Source: Aurantiochytrium sp. KH105 | Taxonomy: Eukaryota; Sar; Bigyra; Thraustochytrida; Thraustochytriidae | Reading direction: 5' to 3' | Assembly: GCA_003116975.1 (NCBI GenBank) | Contig: BGKB01000200.1 | Coordinates: forward strand, 65,564-129,563 | DNA length: 64,000 nucleotides | Shown here: positions 4,024 to 33,037 of the stretch, in pieces | Layout of the letters: every line of letters begins with the position of its first letter | How positions within the stretch are numbered: position 1 is the stretch's first letter | Made by a program: the position numbers and the translations under genes | Notes under the pieces: model-generated | What the model saw: the letters and a program-made list of their open reading frames with translations, nothing else | The model's database searches: none | What the model was told of the DNA's origin: nothing

Positions 4024-6810
4024 ATGCGGACGGTGCCTTTCGAGACGCAGGAAGGCGTTCGACGACGGCGCCCAGGAGCTGCGCAGGACTTTGCCTCGAG
4101 TCGAGTCTTTGGCAAATTCGACGACGGCGACGAAAACGACGACGACGCGGGGGTGCAGCCGAACGAGGAGGAGGACGGGGAGGCGTCCGAAGACGTTGAC
4201 GCGACATGGAGGTACTACGATGAGGACGGACACAATCCCTTTCGAAGATTCTTGCGTCCCGACAACCCCGAACATCTGTATCCGACAAGACGCTTCGTGC
4301 TCTTTCTCTTTCTGGGGTCATGCCTCAGCACCGTCGGCGTGCAAATCAGTGCAGACCAGTACTACGAGGGTCCGCAGCAGCAACACGTGATCGATTTCCA
4401 TTGGGAACAGGCAAGTCCCCTTCATATCGCCTTTGAGAACATTGGGTGTTCCATCAATGGCGTCGACCATACTATTTTGTCAAATGTCTCGGGCGAGGTG
4501 CAACCTGGTCGACTTATGGGCATCATGGGTCCAAGCGGGTCTGGCAAGACCACCCTGTCATGGAGCTTATTGGGTCGCGGGAAGCGATACTGCACCGGTG
4601 GGCTTTACGGCGACCTTTACTTGAACGGACGCCCACGGAACTTGGAATCTTTTCTCGATCGCGTCGGCTTTGTGCCACAAGATGACGTGCTCTGCCCTGA
4701 TTTGACAGTGGAAGAGATATTGCACTTTAGCGCAAGCTGGCGTCTTCCACGGGATTTGTCCGAAGAGGATCGTCAACAAGTGGTGGAAGATGTCATGGAA
4801 ACTCTCGACCTGGTCAAAGTAAGGGATCGACGTGTTGGTGGTGTCAACAAGCGCGGCATTAGCGGTGGAGAGCGAAAACGGACGAGCATCGGCATGGAGC
4901 TTGTTGCCAATCCTGCAGTTCTCATCATGGACGAGCCGACCTCGGGTCTCGACAGTGCGGGAACATTCCGCCTCATGAGCATGCTCAAGCGGATTGCGGA
5001 TCGCAACGTTTCCGTGGTGACCGTGATTCATCAGCCCTCGGCGCGCGTCTTTAGTCTGTTGGATGACCTGGTGCTCATGCAGGAAGGCGAAGCAGCCTAT
5101 GTAGGGCCTCGTGAAGGGATTCTGGACTTTTTGGACCAAATGGGATACAATGTGCCAGGTCGCGGACGAGACGGGATCCATGCTGACTTTGCAGAACCCC
5201 CTGCAGAATTCATTCTGGACGTTGCGGCCCGTTTAGAGCAGCCATCTCGTCCACCAGAGCTTGGAGACGGGCGTCGTATCGAGGACATTTGCGCCGAGCA
5301 CGATCACGAGTTCTGTCTTGCACGAGCGGATGGTCAGAGGCATCCTTTGCTGCCCGTCCTCTTTCGAGAGGTTTCCCAAACGCGTGGGGTGTGGACAGCG
5401 ATCGAGGAGCGGATGGGACGTGACCGCAGGGCGGAAGACGCGGAGCGCTGCGTTGCAGCCAAAGCCGACAGCGCAAAGGAGGAAGTGCTTGCGCACAGCG
5501 AGGACCGCGCTGCCCTGGAGGCCCTCGTGGTCACCTGGCGTGCCGAGTGCCAGGCGCTCCCCGATGATCAGCTCATGCAGGCCGCCAAGGGTTCCGCAGA
5601 AGAGGATTCCAGCTCGTCGGAGACGCTTCTGTCGAGCCTCGTCGAGATGCTCTGTGATGAAGAAAGTACAGCGCTGTACTGCGCCTTTTTGGAGCATCGC
5701 GATGCGCTGCTACCCTCGACGCAGCAACGAACAAAGCCTGGGCTCAAGCGTCAGGTTCAGCTGTGGTTTTGGCGTAATGTCTTTGTACTCAAGCTGCGAA
5801 GAGGCATTGCGGCCGAAGTAGCATCGGTGGCATCCTTGGCGCTGGTTGTATCCTTTGTCCGCAGCTTTAACAAGACGTGGAATCGGCGTGCTGTCTCAAA
5901 CCTCTTTCTCAGCATTTCGATTGGGCTCCTGGGTATGGTTGGGGCCGTATTTAATGACGACGTCGCGTACGCTAAGCGCGCCGCCGCTGCTGGCATGCTC
6001 CTTGGCGCACATGAGTTTGCCGTCCTCGCAGAGTCGCTGCTCTGGGGATGGTTCGTGAGTCACGTTTATTCGTTTTCCTACTTTGTCGGTTTATGGGCAC
6101 GCACGGGCGTCTGGGTGATTGACACGCCCGCCCCCGCCCCAGCCGGCGTGAGCAAGTTTGATCTTGCCTACTGGGTGCGTCTGCAAAAGTACTACGAGTT
6201 CGCACACCTTTTGCACCTCAATTACTTGACGTCGCAAGCCATTGGACAGGCGATTTGCGTCTTTGCAAATCACGCCACCACTGTATCATATATTGGTTCC
6301 ATGGCGACACTCATTGGCTGTCACGTCTTCGCCTTCTTTACGCCCAACCAGAATCAGATCCAGAACGACTCGATTCTCTTTGGTACGATCAACATTGCGC
6401 CGGTTGTTGAAAGGGTTTGTTCTGTGAGCTATGTGCGTTTCTTTCTCGAGGCCATTTTCCTCTGGGATCCCTCGCCAATGGACCCTGGCGGGCGCTCCTA
6501 CGTGTTGCGCTACTTTGGATACCACGATTCGGACAAGACGACATGTGCAACTTCAATGTTTTCGCTGTGGACGCTCATGCAGGCGGTGCGCTTTGTTGTG
6601 TTTGGACTGCGCAACTCGAATGACTTTCACTCTCTCCACGACACGCCGCTCTTTCTCATTTTCATTTTCAAGGTCCTTAGCTGCCATGTCGTGGCACTCT
6701 TGATTATGACGCTGATTCAGGAATGGTACTTTCCTTGGATCAATGCATTGCAAGAAAAGCTCAAGAATGCTGATGATTACGTCGATATCGTCGACGTGGC
6801 TGCCTCCTGA
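4024..6810 (+). CDS. ABCG-family half transporter
   Basis: 928 aa from ATG 4024, the first ATG of the open frame. The order is nucleotide-binding domain then membrane domain, typical of ABCG (White/WBC) half transporters that dimerise to export lipids, sterols or xenobiotics. The Walker A motif GPSGSGKTT begins at residue 169, the signature SGGERKR at 280, and Walker B (LIMDEPTSGLD) has its D-E at 303-304, so ATP hydrolysis should be intact. An acidic N-terminus (~60 residues) and a hydrophobic stretch (FVLFLFLGSCLSTVGVQI, near 90-108) precede the NBD, which is unusual for a half transporter. A long acidic linker (~400-570) separates NBD from the membrane domain (~580-900), where several hydrophobic segments can be read. 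The transcript runs toward the minus-strand gene at 7071-7517. The substrate cannot be told from the sequence. Confidence 0.93.
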   Translation: MRTVPFETQEGVRRRRPGAAQDFASSRVFGKFDDGDENDDDAGVQPNEEEDGEASEDVDATWRYYDEDGHNPFRRFLRPDNPEHLYPTRRFVLFLFLGSCLSTVGVQISADQYYEGPQQQHVIDFHWEQASPLHIAFENIGCSINGVDHTILSNVSGEVQPGRLMGIMGPSGSGKTTLSWSLLGRGKRYCTGGLYGDLYLNGRPRNLESFLDRVGFVPQDDVLCPDLTVEEILHFSASWRLPRDLSEEDRQQVVEDVMETLDLVKVRDRRVGGVNKRGISGGERKRTSIGMELVANPAVLIMDEPTSGLDSAGTFRLMSMLKRIADRNVSVVTVIHQPSARVFSLLDDLVLMQEGEAAYVGPREGILDFLDQMGYNVPGRGRDGIHADFAEPPAEFILDVAARLEQPSRPPELGDGRRIEDICAEHDHEFCLARADGQRHPLLPVLFREVSQTRGVWTAIEERMGRDRRAEDAERCVAAKADSAKEEVLAHSEDRAALEALVVTWRAECQALPDDQLMQAAKGSAEEDSSSSETLLSSLVEMLCDEESTALYCAFLEHRDALLPSTQQRTKPGLKRQVQLWFWRNVFVLKLRRGIAAEVASVASLALVVSFVRSFNKTWNRRAVSNLFLSISIGLLGMVGAVFNDDVAYAKRAAAAGMLLGAHEFAVLAESLLWGWFVSHVYSFSYFVGLWARTGVWVIDTPAPAPAGVSKFDLAYWVRLQKYYEFAHLLHLNYLTSQAIGQAICVFANHATTVSYIGSMATLIGCHVFAFFTPNQNQIQNDSILFGTINIAPVVERVCSVSYVRFFLEAIFLWDPSPMDPGGRSYVLRYFGYHDSDKTTCATSMFSLWTLMQAVRFVVFGLRNSNDFHSLHDTPLFLIFIFKVLSCHVVALLIMTLIQEWYFPWINALQEKLKNADDYVDIVDVAAS

Positions 6811-23199: not shown

Positions 23200-24699
23200 C
23201 GATTCTAGGCTTCCCCAGACCAGGCCTAGGTAGCCGGAGAGAGAGCCTGCTATGGCCAGCCCCCGCGCGGCGCTGTGCTGTGCTGTGCTGCTGCGACGGA
23301 GCTCACTGTCTCTCGCTCGCTCTCGCTGGCCGCTTTGTCCAACCAGCCCATCTCGTTCCGCCTCCAGAGGCCGAACAAGCGCAGGTGCAACTTGGCTGCA
23401 GCCGTAGCTTTTGAAGCCTCGTGTGTTGACGGCATTCTCTGCGCCGTGCAGGTCGGGCGGGGCGGTCGGAGACGCGGCGCCGGTCCCGCGTCCTCGTCAT
23501 TCATCCTTGCGCAGCCATTAATTCGTGCATCCATTTTAGCTATTAGAATCCTTCCGTCGCAGGGCATTCATTGCAGGGCATCCTCGCCGGTCGATCCGAT
23601 ACTCTCGAACCGTTCGGGCGGCGGAAGCGTCACGCCTCGCGGCGTGGCGTGCCGAGGGTCTTGTGCGGGGAGCTGACTTCTGTGGAAGCCGCCGCGGGGG
23701 CTTCGCGGCGGCGGCTCGGGCAATGGTCTGGGCCCCGCGGTCTCGGGTAAGCACTGCACATGAGGCAAGCCTGGAGCGCCGCCGCGAAACTCGGGCGCGG
23801 CGATTTTTCTGGCCTTTTCGCGAGCAAGTGAGGGGACAAAGCAAAGCGGCAGCGTGGCGGAGGAAGAGGAGAAGGATGCCAATGGAGCGTGTCAAAGGCA
23901 GAGTGGCTCGTGGCGCGTGAGTTGCACGCGAGAGAGATGCGAGAGAAAAGGTTTCAATTTTTGTTCTACTACCTTTTTTGTTTCTTGATGTTTGTTTGTT
24001 TGTTTGTTTGTCTGTTGGGTTTCCTCACTACGGTGCGGGCGCATCATGCATTCACAGTCACAGCAGCAGGAGGAGCTTGCTGTTAGTGAGCGAGTTTGAC
24101 CGGCAGCGCGTGATGTCATCACCGGCATCCTCACCCGCACCAACGCCGCAGCAGCCGCAGCCGCACCTGCGCCGCCCGCGGCTGCGGCTGTTTCTTTGGC
24201 TCCGCTCCGCTTCGCTCGACCGACACGTGCGCGAGCGCGTGCGCGAGCGGCTGCGGAGAGGACCCTGCGCCAGCCCGGTCATTCCTCCCTCCCTCCCAGC
24301 CAGCCTCCGATCGACGCATCGATCGACGCGGCGGCGCGGCCGCGGAGGCAGACTTGGGAGGCGCGGGACCGGCCGCCGGTCCAGCCGCCCCCAGCTGTGG
24401 GCGCACACCAACACCTAGTCCGCGCCGCGGTGGCTGGCAGTCCGTCGCCCTGGCTGGCTCGCACTCGCACTCCTGCCGCGCGGGGGCGCCTCCTGCTTTG
24501 TCCAGATCGAGCGATCTACGCCAGCATCATCAGCAGTGTTATCCAGCAGTGCAGTCAGGATCTCATGATCATGCTGCCGTCAGCGAGTCGCGGTCGCTGC
24601 TGCTGCTGCCACTGCTGCCGGCACCGAGGTGTGGCCCGGGAGACGCTCCGTCGACGCGTCGGCAACGCTCCTCTCCGCGCCGTCCGAAAGTAGAAGCAG

Positions 24700-25098
24700 C
24701 GAGGCTAGGCTGCGCTCGAGAGCGAGCATCGTGAGCTTACGAACGCGACCGAGAAAGCCAGGTGCCGCCGGTCCGGGGACTCCCGCCAGTGCTGCCGCGG
24801 TGCGTGCATGGCGTTAGCTCAGCCTGGCCGACGGCCGCCTCGCTATGCATGAACGCGGAGAAGAAGAAGATGATGAAGAAGAGCTAGCTCGCTCTCCGAG
24901 AAAAATTGAAGAGGCCCGCCTGCTGCGAACTCGAGCGAACGCGGGGCGGGCGCGGTTCTTGGGCCCGCGGCAGGCAGGCAGGCAGGCGAGGCGGGTTGGC
25001 TGGCTGGGGCCGCGCTGCAACGCGGACGGGTTTGCACGCGGCTGCAGCGCAGCTGTGCCACGAGGCCGCGTTCGTCGGGATGGATGGATTCGTGGTCG
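24700..25098 (+). repeat. Left arm of a 399-bp inverted repeat
   Basis: The reverse complement of this segment recurs at 32639-33037. The two arms have equal length and, read base by base, differ only at 24775 (G) versus 32962 (T, which would read A on this strand). Both arms include the same AAGAAGAAGATGATG tract and the same CAGGCAGG repeat. Homology stops abruptly at both ends of the arm. No target-site duplication is evident outside the arms (GAAGCAG before, TGTTTATC after). Confidence 0.95.
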
Positions 25099-25437
25099 GT
25101 CGATCGGTGGTGTGGCGAAGAGGCGCACGAGCAGCACAGACAGTCTTCGCTGCTGCGAGTATTTCCCAACCGGGAACACCTCAAGCCTTGAAAGTCGAAG
25201 CCAAACGGGTGAAATCACTTGCTCCGCGTTCCCAGCTGCAGCAGGCAGCTGACAGCGCCCGGGCAGCCGCTAGACAGACAAGCAGAATGGATGACTGTGC
25301 AGGACAAAACTTTTTGACTTATAGATTTACGTGCCCGCAGCCTAAGATAAGATCCTCGCTGCACTCGCTCACGGTGGCCCGCTCCACCTCATTCCTCGGC
25401 CGTCGACTGTCCACCGGCCAAGAGCCCGACCGGATGC
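25099..25437. other. Spacer between left arm and hairpin array
   Basis: No gene is supported. The first part starts GTCGATCGGTGG and stays GC-rich; from ~25300 the sequence becomes less GC-rich and different from the surrounding island. Confidence 0.4.
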
Positions 25438-25487
25438 GATCGCACCCGCGATCAAAGATCGCACCCGCGATCAAAGATCGCACCCGC
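25438..25487. repeat. 19-bp tandem hairpin repeat (2.6 copies)
   Basis: Units start at 25438, 25457 and 25476. Each full unit contains GATCGC-ACCC-GCGATC (6-bp stem, 4-base loop) followed by AAA. The third copy is cut after GATCGCACCCGC. Confidence 0.85.
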
Positions 25488-25490
25488 TGC

Positions 25491-25650
25491 AATGATGCCG
25501 CCTTAACGAGGCCCCGCGTATCATTCCGTCAGCGAGTAATGCCGCCCTTGACGAAGGCCCAGCGCATTACTGAATAATGTCGCCTTGACGAAGGCCCAGC
25601 ACATTATTCCATCACCTTACATGCCGCTTTTACACGAGCCCGCGCATTTC
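25491..25650. repeat. Array of four related hairpins with covarying outer stems
   Basis: Units lie at 25491-25525, 25536-25570, 25572-25609 and ~25617-25650. They share a core of the form GCCGCCTTGACGAAGGCCCAGC but have different self-complementary arms: AATGAT/ATCATT, GTAATGC/GCATTAC, GAATAATGT/ACATTATTC and ATGC/GCAT. In the first three units the core can form an inner stem (GCCTT-GACG-AAGGC is the best). They lie ~225 bases upstream of the recombinase frame, with no open reading frame across them. Confidence 0.85.
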
Positions 25651-25872
25651 ATTTTCACCATGTTATTCATAGCATGAATCATAGTCTAAGCTGCACGAAG
25701 CCACGCATTCGCGAGCTCTCGTCCGCCAGCAGACCCGAATCACCCGAGCACTCGAACCCAGTGCGAGACCCGAGTTAACCGCTACCAGGGTGGCCGAATT
25801 GCAAGCAGACTCTTTCTAATCGTTCGACTCCCTTGCAACCTAGGCAAACAACTACAGTCTCCGAGCAGCTGC

Positions 25873-26472
25873 GTGAGACTCCAACTTCTTCCTCCCCTCC
25901 GCGCTACGCGCGGAGGGGACGATTTTCTTCGCAAGTGTGCTGATAACGGCAAAGTTCGTGTGATTCGTCTACCTGGTGGCAAGCGATGCTACTGTGTTTC
26001 TGATGTCTTCCAGCTCGTCGGATTGCCCCAGAATAAGTCCGAATGCGGGCAGCGTATCATCTACGCACGAGTTTCATCGGCGAAACAACATCTCGATCTC
26101 GAGCGACAGATCTCCGAGCTCAGTCTCGCTTACCCGGAACATCGCGTCATTAAGGACATTGGATCTGCCGTCAATTTCCGCCGCAAAGGCGCGCAAGCCA
26201 TTTTGGACCTCGCTTTCGAACGCAATCTCGCAGAAGTTGTCGTCTTGCACAAAGACAGACGTGCACGTATTGGATATCCCGTCATGGAGCACATCCTTGC
26301 TAAAGCTGGCGCGAAACTCGTGGTTCACAGTAAAGGCAACGATGTGCGATCCGCCAACAACGAACTCGCAGACGATGTTCTCGCCGACACTAGTCTTCTT
26401 GTGGCAAGCCATAATGAACGTAGAGCAGCTGCGAATCGAAAGAAGCGCAGAGTTGAAGCGCATCAAGCTTGA
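25873..26472 (+). CDS. IS607-family serine recombinase (TnpA-like), N-terminally degraded
   Basis: 199 codons counted from a GTG at 25873. The frame is open back to a stop at 25687 but contains no ATG before residue ~138, so the start is undefined. The visible protein begins within the MerR/IS607-type winged HTH: FLRKCADNGKVRVIRLPGGK is the second half of that domain, and the first ~20-25 residues expected are missing. The resolvase-type catalytic domain is complete: IIYARVSSAKQ with the nucleophilic Ser at residue 68, DIGSAVNFRRKG, a KDRRARIGY motif (family usual DRLARFG), and a C-terminal E-x2-x-D-x-L helix region ending in a basic tail. IS607 recombinases move the element without terminal inverted repeats. 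Its 3' end overlaps the nuclease gene by 59 bases, the typical IS607 arrangement. It may be a dead copy, or start through a spliced or non-ATG initiation. Confidence 0.85.
   Translation: MRLQLLPPLRATRGGDDFLRKCADNGKVRVIRLPGGKRCYCVSDVFQLVGLPQNKSECGQRIIYARVSSAKQHLDLERQISELSLAYPEHRVIKDIGSAVNFRRKGAQAILDLAFERNLAEVVVLHKDRRARIGYPVMEHILAKAGAKLVVHSKGNDVRSANNELADDVLADTSLLVASHNERRAAANRKKRRVEAHQA
25893..25919. repeat. Perfect 12-bp hairpin at the recombinase 5' end
   Basis: TCCCCTCCGCGC, loop TAC, then the exact complement. It lies exactly where the recombinase frame loses similarity to the family's N-terminal helix-turn-helix, so it may mark a rearrangement junction or a regulatory structure. Confidence 0.9.
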
Positions 26473-27820
26473 GGAAGAAGTTGTACGGGCGTTGCTCGAA
26501 CTGGCGAGTGATGATGAGACCGCGAGGGAAAGGCGAGAACGGCAAGCGATGGCGGGTGAAGATCGGATTTTATCCAAAAAGAAGAGTAAAATGAAGCGGA
26601 AAACGGAAGACGTTGAGAGTGAAAACGCAGTGCCCCCCACCAGCAGAATTCGGGCTCGGAAGATTCGTGTCTACCCAAACGAGAGACAACAACAAAAGCT
26701 TATGCAGTGGTTTGGAGTAGTTCGATTCGCATACAACAAGCTAGTCGCAAAGTACAGAAATGTCGAATGCGGTGTAAGCTTGGATTTACTCCGTGCTGAG
26801 CTCAAGCAATATGAGGAAAAACACGACTGGTTCAAGGACGTTCCATGCGAAATACGAGATTGTGCAGCGCGCGATATGGACAAGGCTCGGAAAGCACACT
26901 TTGCAAAGAAGAATAAGGGTGTGACGAACACGAGTGAGAGAGCATCTTTTAAATTTAAGACAAAGTCGGCGAGACAACAGTCCTTCGAGGTGCGCTCACG
27001 AGACTGGTCCCGAAAGTCGGGCAAATTTGCAGGTCTTTTCGGCCCACATTTGCGCTCTGCCGAGGGAGAGCTTCCTGAAACTGTGAATGCAACTGTTCGT
27101 GTTGTCAGAGACTTCAGAGGATGTTTCTATGTCTGTATACCTGAACAAGTGGAGATTAAGGAAGAAGAGCATGCGCCCAGTCCTAGCTGCCATTCAACCG
27201 TAGCTATGGATCCCGGTGTGAGATGCTTCATGACTACTTTTGACGCAGATGGACTTGTAACGGAGTGGGGAAACGGAGATATCGAACGAGTTTATAGACT
27301 TTGTAGACATGCAGACAAGCTCCAAGGATTCATTGACAAAGCAAAGAACAAGCAACAACGTAACCGGCGCAAACGCGCTTGGCGCAAGATTTTCGAGCGG
27401 ATTCGACGACTCGTTAAAGAGTTACATCGCAAGTTTGCGTCGTGGCTCTGTAGCAACTATCGGGTCGTTCTTATCCCCAAATTCGATACGCAGCAAATGG
27501 TACTTCGTGGTACAAGGAAAATTACATCCAAGACGGCGCGCAAGATGTTGACGTGGAGTCATTTCGCTTTTCGAGAGCATCTTATTCAACACGCGGAATT
27601 AAATACCTGGACGAAAGTTATTGTATGTGATGAAGCCTACACAACAAAGACATGTGGTCGTTGTGGACACATTCATAACAAAATCGGAGGGGCAAAAACA
27701 TTTCGTTGTCCAAGTACTTCCTGTTCCTACGTTGCCAATCGAGACATCAATGGTGCACGCAACATTCTTATTCGATACATGACCAATTATATGGGTCATC
27801 AAGCGGTGTCTGTTTCTTGA
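26414..27820 (+). CDS. TnpB/Fanzor-type RNA-guided nuclease homologue (IS607-associated, Fanzor2-like)
   Basis: 468 aa from ATG 26414; the frame extends upstream but there it is the shadow of the recombinase. N-terminus: a charged coiled coil and a basic cluster KKKSKMKRK (~55-63) that looks like a nuclear localisation signal. TnpB-type N-terminal domain: RIRARKIRVYPNERQQQKL, WFGVVRFAYNKL. RuvC-like nuclease: motif I D266 in VAMDPGVRC; the canonical motif II position reads LIPKFDTQQM with Asp358 rather than Glu; Glu407 in CDEAYTTKTCGRCG fits the relocated catalytic Glu described for Fanzors and related TnpBs; motif III D444 in NRDINGARN. A zinc ribbon uses C414, C417, C432 and C437. Fanzors are eukaryotic or viral TnpB relatives that cut DNA guided by an omega RNA encoded near the gene's 3' end. 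All catalytic residues and an uninterrupted frame suggest an active enzyme. Codon use is less GC-biased than in host genes, consistent with transfer from a virus or bacterium. Confidence 0.93.
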   Translation: MNVEQLRIERSAELKRIKLEEEVVRALLELASDDETARERRERQAMAGEDRILSKKKSKMKRKTEDVESENAVPPTSRIRARKIRVYPNERQQQKLMQWFGVVRFAYNKLVAKYRNVECGVSLDLLRAELKQYEEKHDWFKDVPCEIRDCAARDMDKARKAHFAKKNKGVTNTSERASFKFKTKSARQQSFEVRSRDWSRKSGKFAGLFGPHLRSAEGELPETVNATVRVVRDFRGCFYVCIPEQVEIKEEEHAPSPSCHSTVAMDPGVRCFMTTFDADGLVTEWGNGDIERVYRLCRHADKLQGFIDKAKNKQQRNRRKRAWRKIFERIRRLVKELHRKFASWLCSNYRVVLIPKFDTQQMVLRGTRKITSKTARKMLTWSHFAFREHLIQHAELNTWTKVIVCDEAYTTKTCGRCGHIHNKIGGAKTFRCPSTSCSYVANRDINGARNILIRYMTNYMGHQAVSVS

Positions 27821-27960
27821 AACAGGCAACCTTTGCCACTATAGGCCTGAGGTGGTCAACATTGTTCCCCATGTCCCACCTCTGCAGAAAACCTGGCTAC
27901 AATGAGTATATGAGCCCACTGGGAAAACTAGGTTTGCATAGGAGTACTAGGTTTTAAATA
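27804..27960 (+). ncRNA. Candidate omega (guide) RNA region at the 3' end of the Fanzor gene
   Basis: TnpB/Fanzor guide RNAs usually overlap or follow the nuclease 3' end. Here CTGTTTC-TT-GAAACAG spans the stop codon. Further on, 27849-27855 (GAGGTGG) pairs with 27876-27882 (CCACCTC), and inside that loop 27859-27862 (ACAT) pairs with 27871-27874 (ATGT), giving a bulged hairpin. A CTAGGTTT repeat follows (27929 and ~27948). There is no coding potential. The exact element end, and so the guide segment, cannot be fixed from one copy. Confidence 0.4.
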
Positions 27961-30900
27961 TAGCGTGGTGAATGAACGAATGAATGAAATCACCTCTGCG
28001 GCCGACCGAACACCTCCTGCGCTTTCGCGCACCTCTTCCAGTCTATCCGTCCTTGGCCGCTTCGGCTCAAGGGCCCGCGGGGAAGCCCGCTGCCAGCGCT
28101 GCGGGATTGCTGTGGTGCAAGGGCCCTCCGCGAGGCCGCCGGCTGTGGCGCCACCGCGGCCGCCCGCCCCCACTGGCTCCGCAGTCCGCAGCTTCTTTTG
28201 CCCCCACACCCACGGGCGGCGGCGGCGGGTCTTTCGCCGGCCGGACCGGGCCGCTGGCCGCCAACCAACGCGCGGGCCTCGCTCGCGCCGGAGCCGCCAG
28301 CCTGGCCCGCGAGGTCGATCGATCGCCCTGGCCGGCGGTAGCTGCGGCGCGGAACCTCCCAAAGGCGCCAAACGGACGGACCCCTCAGCGTCTCCAGGCC
28401 TGCCGCGCAAGTCGCAGTCGGTTGGCTTCGCCTGTGGCTGCGGTGGAAAGCAAGGCCAAGGCTTTCCTGGTCCTGCTTGCCTTATTGGCTCTCTCTAGTA
28501 CTATGATAAATAAGTCGGGTCTTTCTTTTCTTCCTTTTTTTCTTTTTCCTTTTTTTTCTTATTTCCTTGCTTTCTCGTTGAGGTTATAACAGCCGTGGCC
28601 GCCAGGGGAAGACTCGGCATGGGGCCTGGCCGCGAAGCCAGGACTCACGGCGCGCTGGTCGCTTCGCTTCGCTCGCTTCTGGACTGGCGACGGAGAGATC
28701 GCAGTCGAGCGCGGCCTCGAGGCTGACACAAGACTGCGGCAGCGAGCAAGTCAACTCGCCACAAGCCAAGACCAAGACAAGATTTCTTTCGAAATTCTCA
28801 AGCGTAACGTCAAGGATTCTGCTGGCTGCTGCTGCTGGCAGTGGCTGCTGCATGTTGGTCGCAGTCGGTCGCATTTGGTCGGCCGACCGGCCGGCGTCCT
28901 TCCCAGCTTCTCTCAGACTCTCTGTCGATCTGTCCACAAGATATCTTTCCCAAAGGCGGCTGCCGCCGCGGAGCCTGCCGGAGCAGCAGCCATCGCGCCA
29001 GCGAGACCTGGAGAAGAAAAACTCGATCGCCGTCTTCTCTTCTCTTATCTTTTCTTTCTGCTCTCCAATCTTCAACCCACTCGAGCAAGCAAGCAAGCAA
29101 AGTAAAGCAAATTGGCCAGCTTTCTCTATCACGGCATTCCGGCACGCCTCGCCGACCCACTCGCCGCTTCCTTCCCTCGCTCACTCGCGCGCCCCGTCCA
29201 TCACGACGCGTACCTCGACTCGGCCGCGTCCTCGGGGAAGAAGATATCGCCCGCCCGTTCAGGTTGTTAGGCCTCGGCAATCTTTTGCCAACAAAAAACC
29301 GCGCCAAGCGAACCAGGCCGCCATCACGCCGCGCTCTGCGTCGAATCCCTCGCCAAGCCTCGCCGCGTCGCGGCCTTGCGAGACCGAACGGAGGCTCCGA
29401 CCGTGCTGCGATTGCGCCCCGCCGAAGGATGTCGAAGGTAGCTGAAGGTCGTCGCAAAGATTGATGAAGCAAAAGCTGCCTTGAACGGCCTGCCAGCCTT
29501 GCTTGCCTTCGCTTGGCGAGCCTCGCCTTGGAGGCCTCGAGGCCGCCGCCAGCCACCGTTCCGGTCCCGTCCGCGCGACCGCGGCAGCCCAGGTGGCCGC
29601 CGCTGCAGCCCGACGCGGCGCCACGGCGCGCTCGCGAGGGATTTGAGGGACGCCATGGGATGTGGAGAACTGGCGCACAAGATGGTGAAGATGCTGATGC
29701 TGATGCCCTCGCCATGAACGGGGTCTCCGCCGCGTCGATGGACGCAAGCGAGCACGGACCCACGCGGCCGCCGAGGCCGCGGGCGAGGAGAGGGAGGAAC
29801 GAGACGCCGCGCTGTCGTCGCTGTCGTCGCTGGCGGGGCGGAGCGGGTCAAGCCGGGTCAAGTCGGGTCTCGCACGGCGCGCTCGGACGATGGACCGATC
29901 GACCGATCGAACCCGCGGCACTCGGACCGCCTGCCGAGGGCACCTGGGCTGCCGCCCCGGCGACGCCCGGAGCGGCGTGTCGATGGCGCGGCGGAAGTCG
30001 CGGCGGGGTTCGATCGCCCGCGCGCGATTCCAGCGAGGCCGGGCTCGGAAGTCTCGCTCGGGCAGAACTTGGAATAGACGAATGAATCAATGAACGAAGG
30101 AAGGTTTTTGGAGGAAAAGCAAATGACGATTGATTGATCGATCTTGCTTGTTAGGAAGCAATTTAGGCCTGGGTAGGCCTATCCGGAGCAGCTGGCTGCA
30201 GCAAGCATACATGTTCACTGCCCGTGCAATGGAAGCTGGCGTGGCTGCTCTCGTCGGTCATGCAAATTCGCGCCGATACTCGGATCGGGCAAGGACCGGC
30301 ACACAGAAGAAGGCGTGCGTGCGTGCGTGCGAGCGAGCGTGCGTGAATGCGTGGCCGGCTTGAGCGAACGCTTCCCCAAAGCCCAGAGCAGAACTTTATC
30401 TAATCCGGCAATTCACTTCCTTTCCTCGGCACAGGACGAGTCGTGTGGCGTGGCTTGCAAAATCCAAAATCGAAGAAAAAAAGTCCCTTTTTCCAGGCAC
30501 GCTTGATTTGCTGCTGCGCGTCGACGACGGTCGCAAAGCCAGCGTATATCATTTTTTACGCAAAAATTTTGACCTGCGAATGAGGGAGCGGGTGAGCGTG
30601 CGCGCAGTTCAGCTACGCCGCGGAACCGTGCATAGGGGCTTCGTCTACACAAGCCAACCTCATTCACAACTCAACCTCGCTGCTTCTCTATCAAACTAAA
30701 AAATAAACAAAACGACTCACCCGCGCACACTCTCTCTTACTGACAGTTCCTCTCTCTCCCTCTCTCAGATACTCCCCCTGCCACTCAACCCCACACAAAC
30801 CCTTCCCCCTACCCCCTCCCAATCCAGTAGTCAACCCGCCGGTCAGCCAGCCGGTTTTCCCACATCCCCCATCCCACAGCGATGGCAAGAGCTCCCCCTG

Positions 30901-32638: not shown

Positions 32639-33037
32639 CGACCACGAATCCATCCATCCCGACGAACGCGGCCTCGTGGCACAGCTGCGCTGCAGCCGCG
32701 TGCAAACCCGTCCGCGTTGCAGCGCGGCCCCAGCCAGCCAACCCGCCTCGCCTGCCTGCCTGCCTGCCGCGGGCCCAAGAACCGCGCCCGCCCCGCGTTC
32801 GCTCGAGTTCGCAGCAGGCGGGCCTCTTCAATTTTTCTCGGAGAGCGAGCTAGCTCTTCTTCATCATCTTCTTCTTCTCCGCGTTCATGCATAGCGAGGC
32901 GGCCGTCGGCCAGGCTGAGCTAACGCCATGCACGCACCGCGGCAGCACTGGCGGGAGTCCCTGGACCGGCGGCACCTGGCTTTCTCGGTCGCGTTCGTAA
33001 GCTCACGATGCTCGCTCTCGAGCGCAGCCTAGCCTCG
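32639..33037 (-). repeat. Right arm of the 399-bp inverted repeat
   Basis: Reverse complement of 24700-25098 with a single difference (32962). The inner boundary is abrupt: the next base inward differs and the following bases are unrelated. Confidence 0.95.

Follow-up and report, generated by a model that had tools for sequence, protein, structure and literature searches.

A Fanzor2 nuclease gene in a probable 5′-damaged IS607 transposon of the thraustochytrid Aurantiochytrium sp. KH105

We analysed a 64,000-nucleotide stretch of the genome of Aurantiochytrium sp. KH105 (contig BGKB01000200.1, positions 65,564 to 129,563 of the forward strand; the window, below), in which an open frame for a Fanzor2-type protein adjoins a truncated gene for TnpA, the serine recombinase of IS607-type transposons. 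We consider it very probable that the window holds a Fanzor2 nuclease gene within a 5′-damaged eukaryotic IS607 transposon that would work by the mechanism set out in the last section. Related copies elsewhere in the genome fall into families A, B and C, and the window copy (A1) belongs to family A. Its parts, with the flank that follows it, are these:

25104..27965, + strand: family A chimaeric IS607-Fanzor2 copy, 2862 bp, 98% identical over its full length to C201:84107-86949 (copy A2), with unrelated flanks on both sides
25104..25424, + strand: fragment of host repeat R2 replacing the IS607 left end (element 1-321), 78-88% identical to sequences on contigs C22 and C12
25466..25929, + strand: inner fragment (element 363-826) of R1, a dispersed repeat of ~660 bp; a GC-rich hairpin at its end joins it to tnpA
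25915..26472, + strand: 5′-truncated tnpA for an IS607 serine recombinase (profile NF033518), homologous to family B from residue 15 of its open reading frame
26414..27820, + strand: Fanzor2 coding frame with DPG266, Glu407, Asp444 and four Cys
26576..26602, + strand: basic stretch KKKSKMKRK (residues 55-63), a candidate nuclear localisation signal by its sequence
27821..27965, + strand: 3′ region running to the right end (...TAGCG), a sequence conserved in both families A and B; together with the last part of the frame, a candidate guide RNA scaffold
27966..27985, + strand: flank directly past the right end, the predicted omegaRNA guide by analogy with IS607 TnpB (PMC10711439)

The Fanzor2 frame and its active site

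A sequence-only reading of this DNA had reported an intact Fanzor frame, and this is borne out: the frame runs from the ATG at 26414 to a stop ending at 27820 and encodes 468 residues with no internal stop, and Asp266 (in MDPG), Glu407 (in DEAYTTKTC), Asp444 (in NRDIN) and Cys414, 417, 432 and 437 all lie where they had been placed. Its coordinates were right for the frame and left out the element around it, a copy of 25104-27965 that includes tnpA and two repeat fragments. The frame is intact, and its function is predicted. The protein scores 133.2 bits against the NCBIfam profile guided_TnpB (NF040570; cut-off 100) and 53.5 bits against Pfam Cas12f1-like_TNB (cut-off 26.3); the Pfam HTH domain is above its cut-off and OrfB_IS605 slightly below (30.3, cut-off 30.5). 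A database protein search returned 686 homologues at E <= 0.001, and the top ten among those listed share 49-55% identity across 79-96% of the query. Between A1 and a family B copy (B1), the proportions of non-synonymous (pN) and synonymous (pS) differences are 0.184 and 0.806 for the Fanzor core, as for a real gene, and 0.178 and 0.537 for tnpA.

Across an alignment of 70 proteins, made up of the window protein and 69 of the 120 homologues listed, Asp266, Pro267, Gly268, Pro355 and Glu407 are each present in 70/70 and Asp444 in 69/70. The relocated catalytic glutamate claimed earlier thus holds, with Glu407 in every aligned protein and Pro355 in the canonical Glu column. The companion claim, that Asp358 occupies the canonical motif II site, does not: when 89 rows are aligned, all six outgroup TnpB rows have their canonical motif II Glu over Pro355, three positions away, and residue 358 is a separate, mostly acidic column (Glu in 57 and Asp in 5 of the 70 aligned proteins). 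Column 355 holds Pro in all 81 rows from families A and B, the database, bacteria and viruses and Gly in the two family C rows, and none of the six outgroup rows has Glu at column 407. A canonical IS200/IS605 TnpB is ruled out by Pro355 at the canonical RuvC-II Glu column.

In the window protein, Glu407 stands six residues ahead of the zinc ribbon, and the C4 zinc finger (Cys414/417/432/437) is followed by RD at 443-444. Both DPG at RuvC-I (Yoon et al. 2023, PMC10711439) and a C4 finger with RD behind it (Bao and Jurka 2013, PMC3627910) are features described for Fanzor2. A predicted model of the protein (predicted local distance difference test score, pLDDT, 86.2) has as its best Foldseek match the mimivirus Fanzor2 (TnpB-like L79, ISvMimi; PDB 9b0l), which is also the best sequence match among solved structures (80.6 bits). 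The mimivirus protein shares the DPG, has its alternative Glu likewise ahead of the zinc ribbon and also belongs to an IS607-type element (PMC3627910), but it is ~21% identical, sits in a viral genome and has CxxC as its second zinc pair, where the window protein has C-x4-C. Judging from loop position and homology, Glu407 would reach the active site. The Fanzor1 protein SpuFz1 (PDB 8gkh) has the Fanzor fold in common with the model, but the match is much weaker (Foldseek E 1.1e-4). Fanzor1 proteins are carried by non-IS607 transposons (PMC10711439); a Fanzor1 type, carried by a canonical eukaryotic transposon, was set aside with an IS607 TnpA lying alongside.

The ATG at 26414 is absent from family B, which has ACG at that position in 3/3 copies, and the first Met common to the window protein and family B is, by eye, residue 46 (window 26549). 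The Fanzor frame is open further upstream (25964-26413), across most of tnpA in another frame, and its codons between stops number 618 in A1, 578 in A2 and 644-647 in family B. The candidate nuclear localisation signal is plausible from its composition and overlaps a low-confidence segment of the model (60-67). A K-K/R-X-K/R motif ahead of the domain occurs in 16 of the 23 database rows (of 28) having at least 20 residues there, in 2/4 family A and B rows, 0/2 family C rows, 1/24 bacterial rows and 0/25 viral rows.

Copies, element ends and the chimaeric 5′ side

A search of the genome (76 Mb, 367 contigs) gave at least 24 Fanzor matches and at least 19 TnpA matches. Five Fanzor copies are full length, each on a contig of its own and between unrelated flanks, and each has an open frame. 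Family A comprises A1 and A2 (on C201), whose DNA is 98% identical, and family B comprises B1-B3 (on C165, C266 and C242), which are 98-99% identical to one another; the Fanzor proteins of the two families are 66% identical. A family B copy consists of a left end, an ATG-started TnpA, Fanzor and a right end, and is thus a full-length element. Since its copies are 98-99% identical at three sites, the earlier description 'active or recently active' fits family B, for which recent mobility is the best reading; it fits the window copy less well, whose TnpA has lost its N-terminus. The other 18 Fanzor matches are diverged (29-49% identical) and include a second IS607-Fanzor2 family, family C, of which seven loci share DNA with one another (compared were L013-L017, L019 and L020, leaving out L018 on C356). 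Some family C loci have internal deletions. A fourth, broken family B copy on C27 (L021:1836-4614) is 99-100% identical in pieces and is split by a 1.4-kb insertion and by a 1.6-kb internal deletion that holds 587 bp of other DNA.

Each of the five near-intact copies has TnpA next to Fanzor; this TnpA is full-length in family B and truncated in the window copy. The window tnpA open reading frame (25873-26472) is GTG-started, encodes 199 residues and overlaps the Fanzor start by 59 bases. It scores 111.0 bits against NF033518 (cut-off 110) from profile position 14, and 109.8 bits if the reading begins at the upstream stop, while the family B TnpA scores 124.4 bits from position 3. No Met precedes YARVSS in the window frame, where the sole Met is residue 138, behind that motif; in A2, a TAG lies within the GC-rich hairpin. 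Family B has no terminal inverted repeats, the terminal 20 bp matching as an inverted repeat at 8, 8 and 5 of 20 positions in B1-B3, and a single 8-bp subterminal inverted match lies just inside the ends. Short subterminal repeats, AAACCTAT / ATAGGTTT, occur at both family B ends (L012:2846-2900 and 5270-5297) and, from their sequence, are possible TnpA binding sites.

On the right-hand side, the similarity of families A and B ends at TAGCG, to within one base, and family C ends in TAGTAACGG in 6/7 loci. Queries made of joined flanks identified on C48 an element-free counterpart of the B3 site, with a left flank 95% and a right flank 88% identical, and therefore paralogous or allelic; at this one site a target duplication is absent. 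The same queries found no element-free site for B1, B2 or A2, and for A1 they located both flanks, though not joined, on C97, an element-free contig whose homology to the window starts exactly at 27966. The right flank of B3, its would-be guide, agrees with C48 at 20/24 positions, or at 21/24 counting from the second base; in IS607 TnpB, the first base past the right end belongs to the scaffold and not to the guide (PMC10711439). We infer the position of the guide RNA from the conserved right end and from this analogy. A sub-threshold microRNA match (E 0.56) at 24291-24362 lies outside the element.

The left-hand side of A1 is a chimaera. Its DNA homology to family B starts only at family B position 376, and the family B left end and tnpA ATG (position 255, 255 and 242 in B1-B3) have no counterpart in A1. 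R1 accounts for 40 of 52 rows of a genome search, and eight of its copies (L043-L050) were compared with the fragment; in our reading, R1 carries tRNA-like boxes and, close to one of its ends, a GC-rich hairpin. R2 homology extends leftward past the boundary in C201, C12 and C22 and stops at it in the window, where another feature adjoins:

24700..25098, + strand: 399-bp arm adjoining the left edge of the copy, inverted duplicate of 32639-33037 at 99.7% identity

The arm ends 5 bp short of the copy, and because R2 homology stops here beside this inverted duplicate, we regard the left edge as rearranged. Position 25104 was rejected as a true element end on the leftward continuation of R2 in the three other contigs, and the pair TCGG...TAGCG, which at first resembled a CG core, was dropped with it. 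Both family A copies end exactly at the right end and lie at different sites, so that an already formed chimaera would have been copied, presumably by a TnpA encoded elsewhere.

Relatives and genomic setting

The 89-row tree, built by a quick method with Shimodaira-Hasegawa-like approximate likelihood ratio (SH-aLRT) support only, contains four of the five family A and B copies (B2 was left out as a near-copy), 28 of the 120 listed database proteins, 24 bacterial, 25 viral and 6 outgroup rows, and family C; named Fanzor2 proteins are not among its rows. The bacterial rows come from a search that gave 305 loci, of which the best 80 were kept and 24 entered the tree; the viral search with the alignment gave 307 loci, of which the best 80 were kept and 31 entered (the 25 viral and 6 outgroup rows). 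A single-protein search for viral relatives had returned 9 stretches, none of them confirmed. The family A and B rows and 14 database proteins together make up a group of 18 rows (support 100), and this group is nested in a clade of 32 rows (support 90) that includes all 28 database rows, which derive from public genomes and metagenomes. A protein from a viral contig, L072, is sister to the 32-row clade with support 98, on a long branch; the clade that joins next, with support 90, is made up of 21 cyanobacterial rows among which three viral-contig rows are nested, and family C stands apart on a long, unresolved branch.

The best 80 of the 305 bacterial loci are mostly cyanobacterial and 30-39% identical, and pro-Fanzors have likewise been reported mostly from cyanobacteria (Yoon et al., PMC10711439). 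These IS607 TnpBs (Yoon 2023) have the same active-site layout and form the sister clade in our tree, but are bacterial and carry the basic N-terminal motif in the single row noted above. By a motif expression, DPG with the alternative Glu was found in 73/80 bacterial and 11/80 viral loci (best 80 each). TnpA probably lies on the same contig as Fanzor for 11 pairs of the listed database matches, which agree in source and in the length of their contigs. The L072 gene (L072:3707-5158) is a Fanzor2-like gene in a 175-kb viral-contig record; no TnpA was recognised in the 4 scanned of the 9 open reading frames there (>=130 residues, within 9 kb), Fanzor alone being above cut-off, and a capsid search of the record gave no match, with its positive control also silent and the search hence uninformative.

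Ten of the 27 window frames of at least 300 residues were scanned, and nine matched Pfam; judged from size and position, eight or nine of the ten resemble host genes. The frames near the element carry A22B signal peptide peptidase, RhoGEF, LIM and legume-like lectin domains, which are typical of eukaryotes and agree with the sequence-only reading's placement of a Fanzor2-type protein in a eukaryotic chromosome. Bacterial contamination is rejected on the five copies on five contigs, their unrelated flanks, the one site that also exists without the element and these neighbouring domains. The serine recombinase-Fanzor2 elements ACa-1 and CRv-1, which have no terminal inverted repeats and no target duplication (Bao and Jurka 2013, PMC3627910), resemble the window copy as far as their description goes, but in the latter the left end and the beginning of tnpA are missing. 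The window element thus belongs to a described kind, the eukaryotic IS607-Fanzor2 elements (PMC3627910; PMC10711439), and is not a new system; screening of titles and abstract beginnings, with subscription papers and supplements outside its scope, found no earlier description of this element among the papers listed and no literature joining Fanzor with thraustochytrids.

Proposed mechanism, alternatives and meaning

As is known for IS607, family B TnpA would bind both ends of the element, form a circular double-stranded intermediate and insert the circle at a short core without a target duplication. The RNA bound by Fanzor would derive from the 3′ part of the Fanzor gene plus the right end, and its last ~20 nucleotides would be copied from the host flank; from what is known of TnpB and Fanzor biology, Fanzor would cut DNA matching that flank, that is, the empty site or its paralogues, and repair at the cut would copy the element back in. 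The two host repeat fragments have taken the place of the left end and the beginning of tnpA in the window copy, whose Fanzor frame and right end are still complete. The window copy is TnpA-defective and could therefore move only with TnpA supplied in trans.

Several observations weigh against this account. The core dinucleotide at the left end is TG, TG and CG in B1-B3, where the right end has CG in 5/5; at its junction, the C48 site shows a single-base difference; and the rearranged left flank of A1 makes the insertion unreadable there. The 3′ region shows no significant fold (z -0.90, with 39/200 shuffles folding as well), no Rfam match was found in the element, and the covariation term of the A/B alignment (+0.4, with 7/67 pairs changed on both sides) gives no support. 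For the protein, families A and B have C-x4-C as their second zinc pair and match a relaxed search expression but not the strict one of Yoon et al., which has CxxC there, is matched by the three family C copies tried and served as a search filter for prokaryotic relatives, not as a definition of Fanzor2. The VIA-align Z scores place bacterial TnpB (8h1j, 23.2; 8exa, 22.9) above the Fanzor2 structure 9b0l (21.2). As for selection, A1 and A2 differ in the Fanzor core by 11 non-synonymous and 7 synonymous changes (one-sided binomial P 0.078) and in tnpA by 5 to 0, and the family B pairs differ by 6:1, 1:1 and 5:2, too few sites to tell. Constraint since the split of A1 and A2 is at best suggested.

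That weak constraint, together with the truncation of tnpA in both family A copies and the rearranged left edge, bears on the present state of the gene. The window Fanzor may be a dead relic, with a frame that is open only because the damage is young, a state compatible with its origin as an IS607-Fanzor2 element; we regard this as possible and lean the other way, given that the catalytic and zinc-ligand positions are intact in both family A copies, that none of the five near-intact copies has its frame interrupted and that the chimaera would have been copied after its left end was lost.

The sequence-only reading had further suggested that the gene was acquired from a giant or mirus-type virus. 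IS607-Fanzor2 elements are known from giant viruses (PMC3627910), and the L072 protein is well supported as sister to the window's clade, but its branch is long, none of the 25 viral-contig rows falls inside the 32-row clade, and the nearest tree rows are the database proteins. Among the ten scanned window frames, moreover, we judged none to belong to a virus-specific family. Viral acquisition is thus not borne out, and a recent arrival from a giant virus or mirusvirus appears improbable. That Fanzor is kept as a domesticated host gene with a role outside transposition, as an intact nuclease frame beside a broken tnpA in both family A copies might suggest, is more improbable still to a marked degree, given that the multiple copies, precise right ends, unrelated flanks and broken relatives form the pattern of a transposon and not of a host locus.

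We therefore return to the 5′-damaged IS607 transposon, of a kind proposed to bridge bacterial TnpB and the eukaryotic Fanzors (PMC10711439). A bolder version, which we think rather unlikely, is that family A shed its TnpA start and left end, took up host repeats and spread by means of family B TnpA with the nuclease as its sole working gene; if this were true, family A would be a eukaryotic step from an autonomous IS607 transposon to a nuclease-only element. Taken alone, the protein is an ordinary, well-formed member of its family, and it is the copies that make the locus more informative: with young full-length copies, an element-free site matching the predicted guide and derivatives lacking TnpA in one genome, the role of the nuclease for a eukaryotic transposon becomes a question that can be asked.
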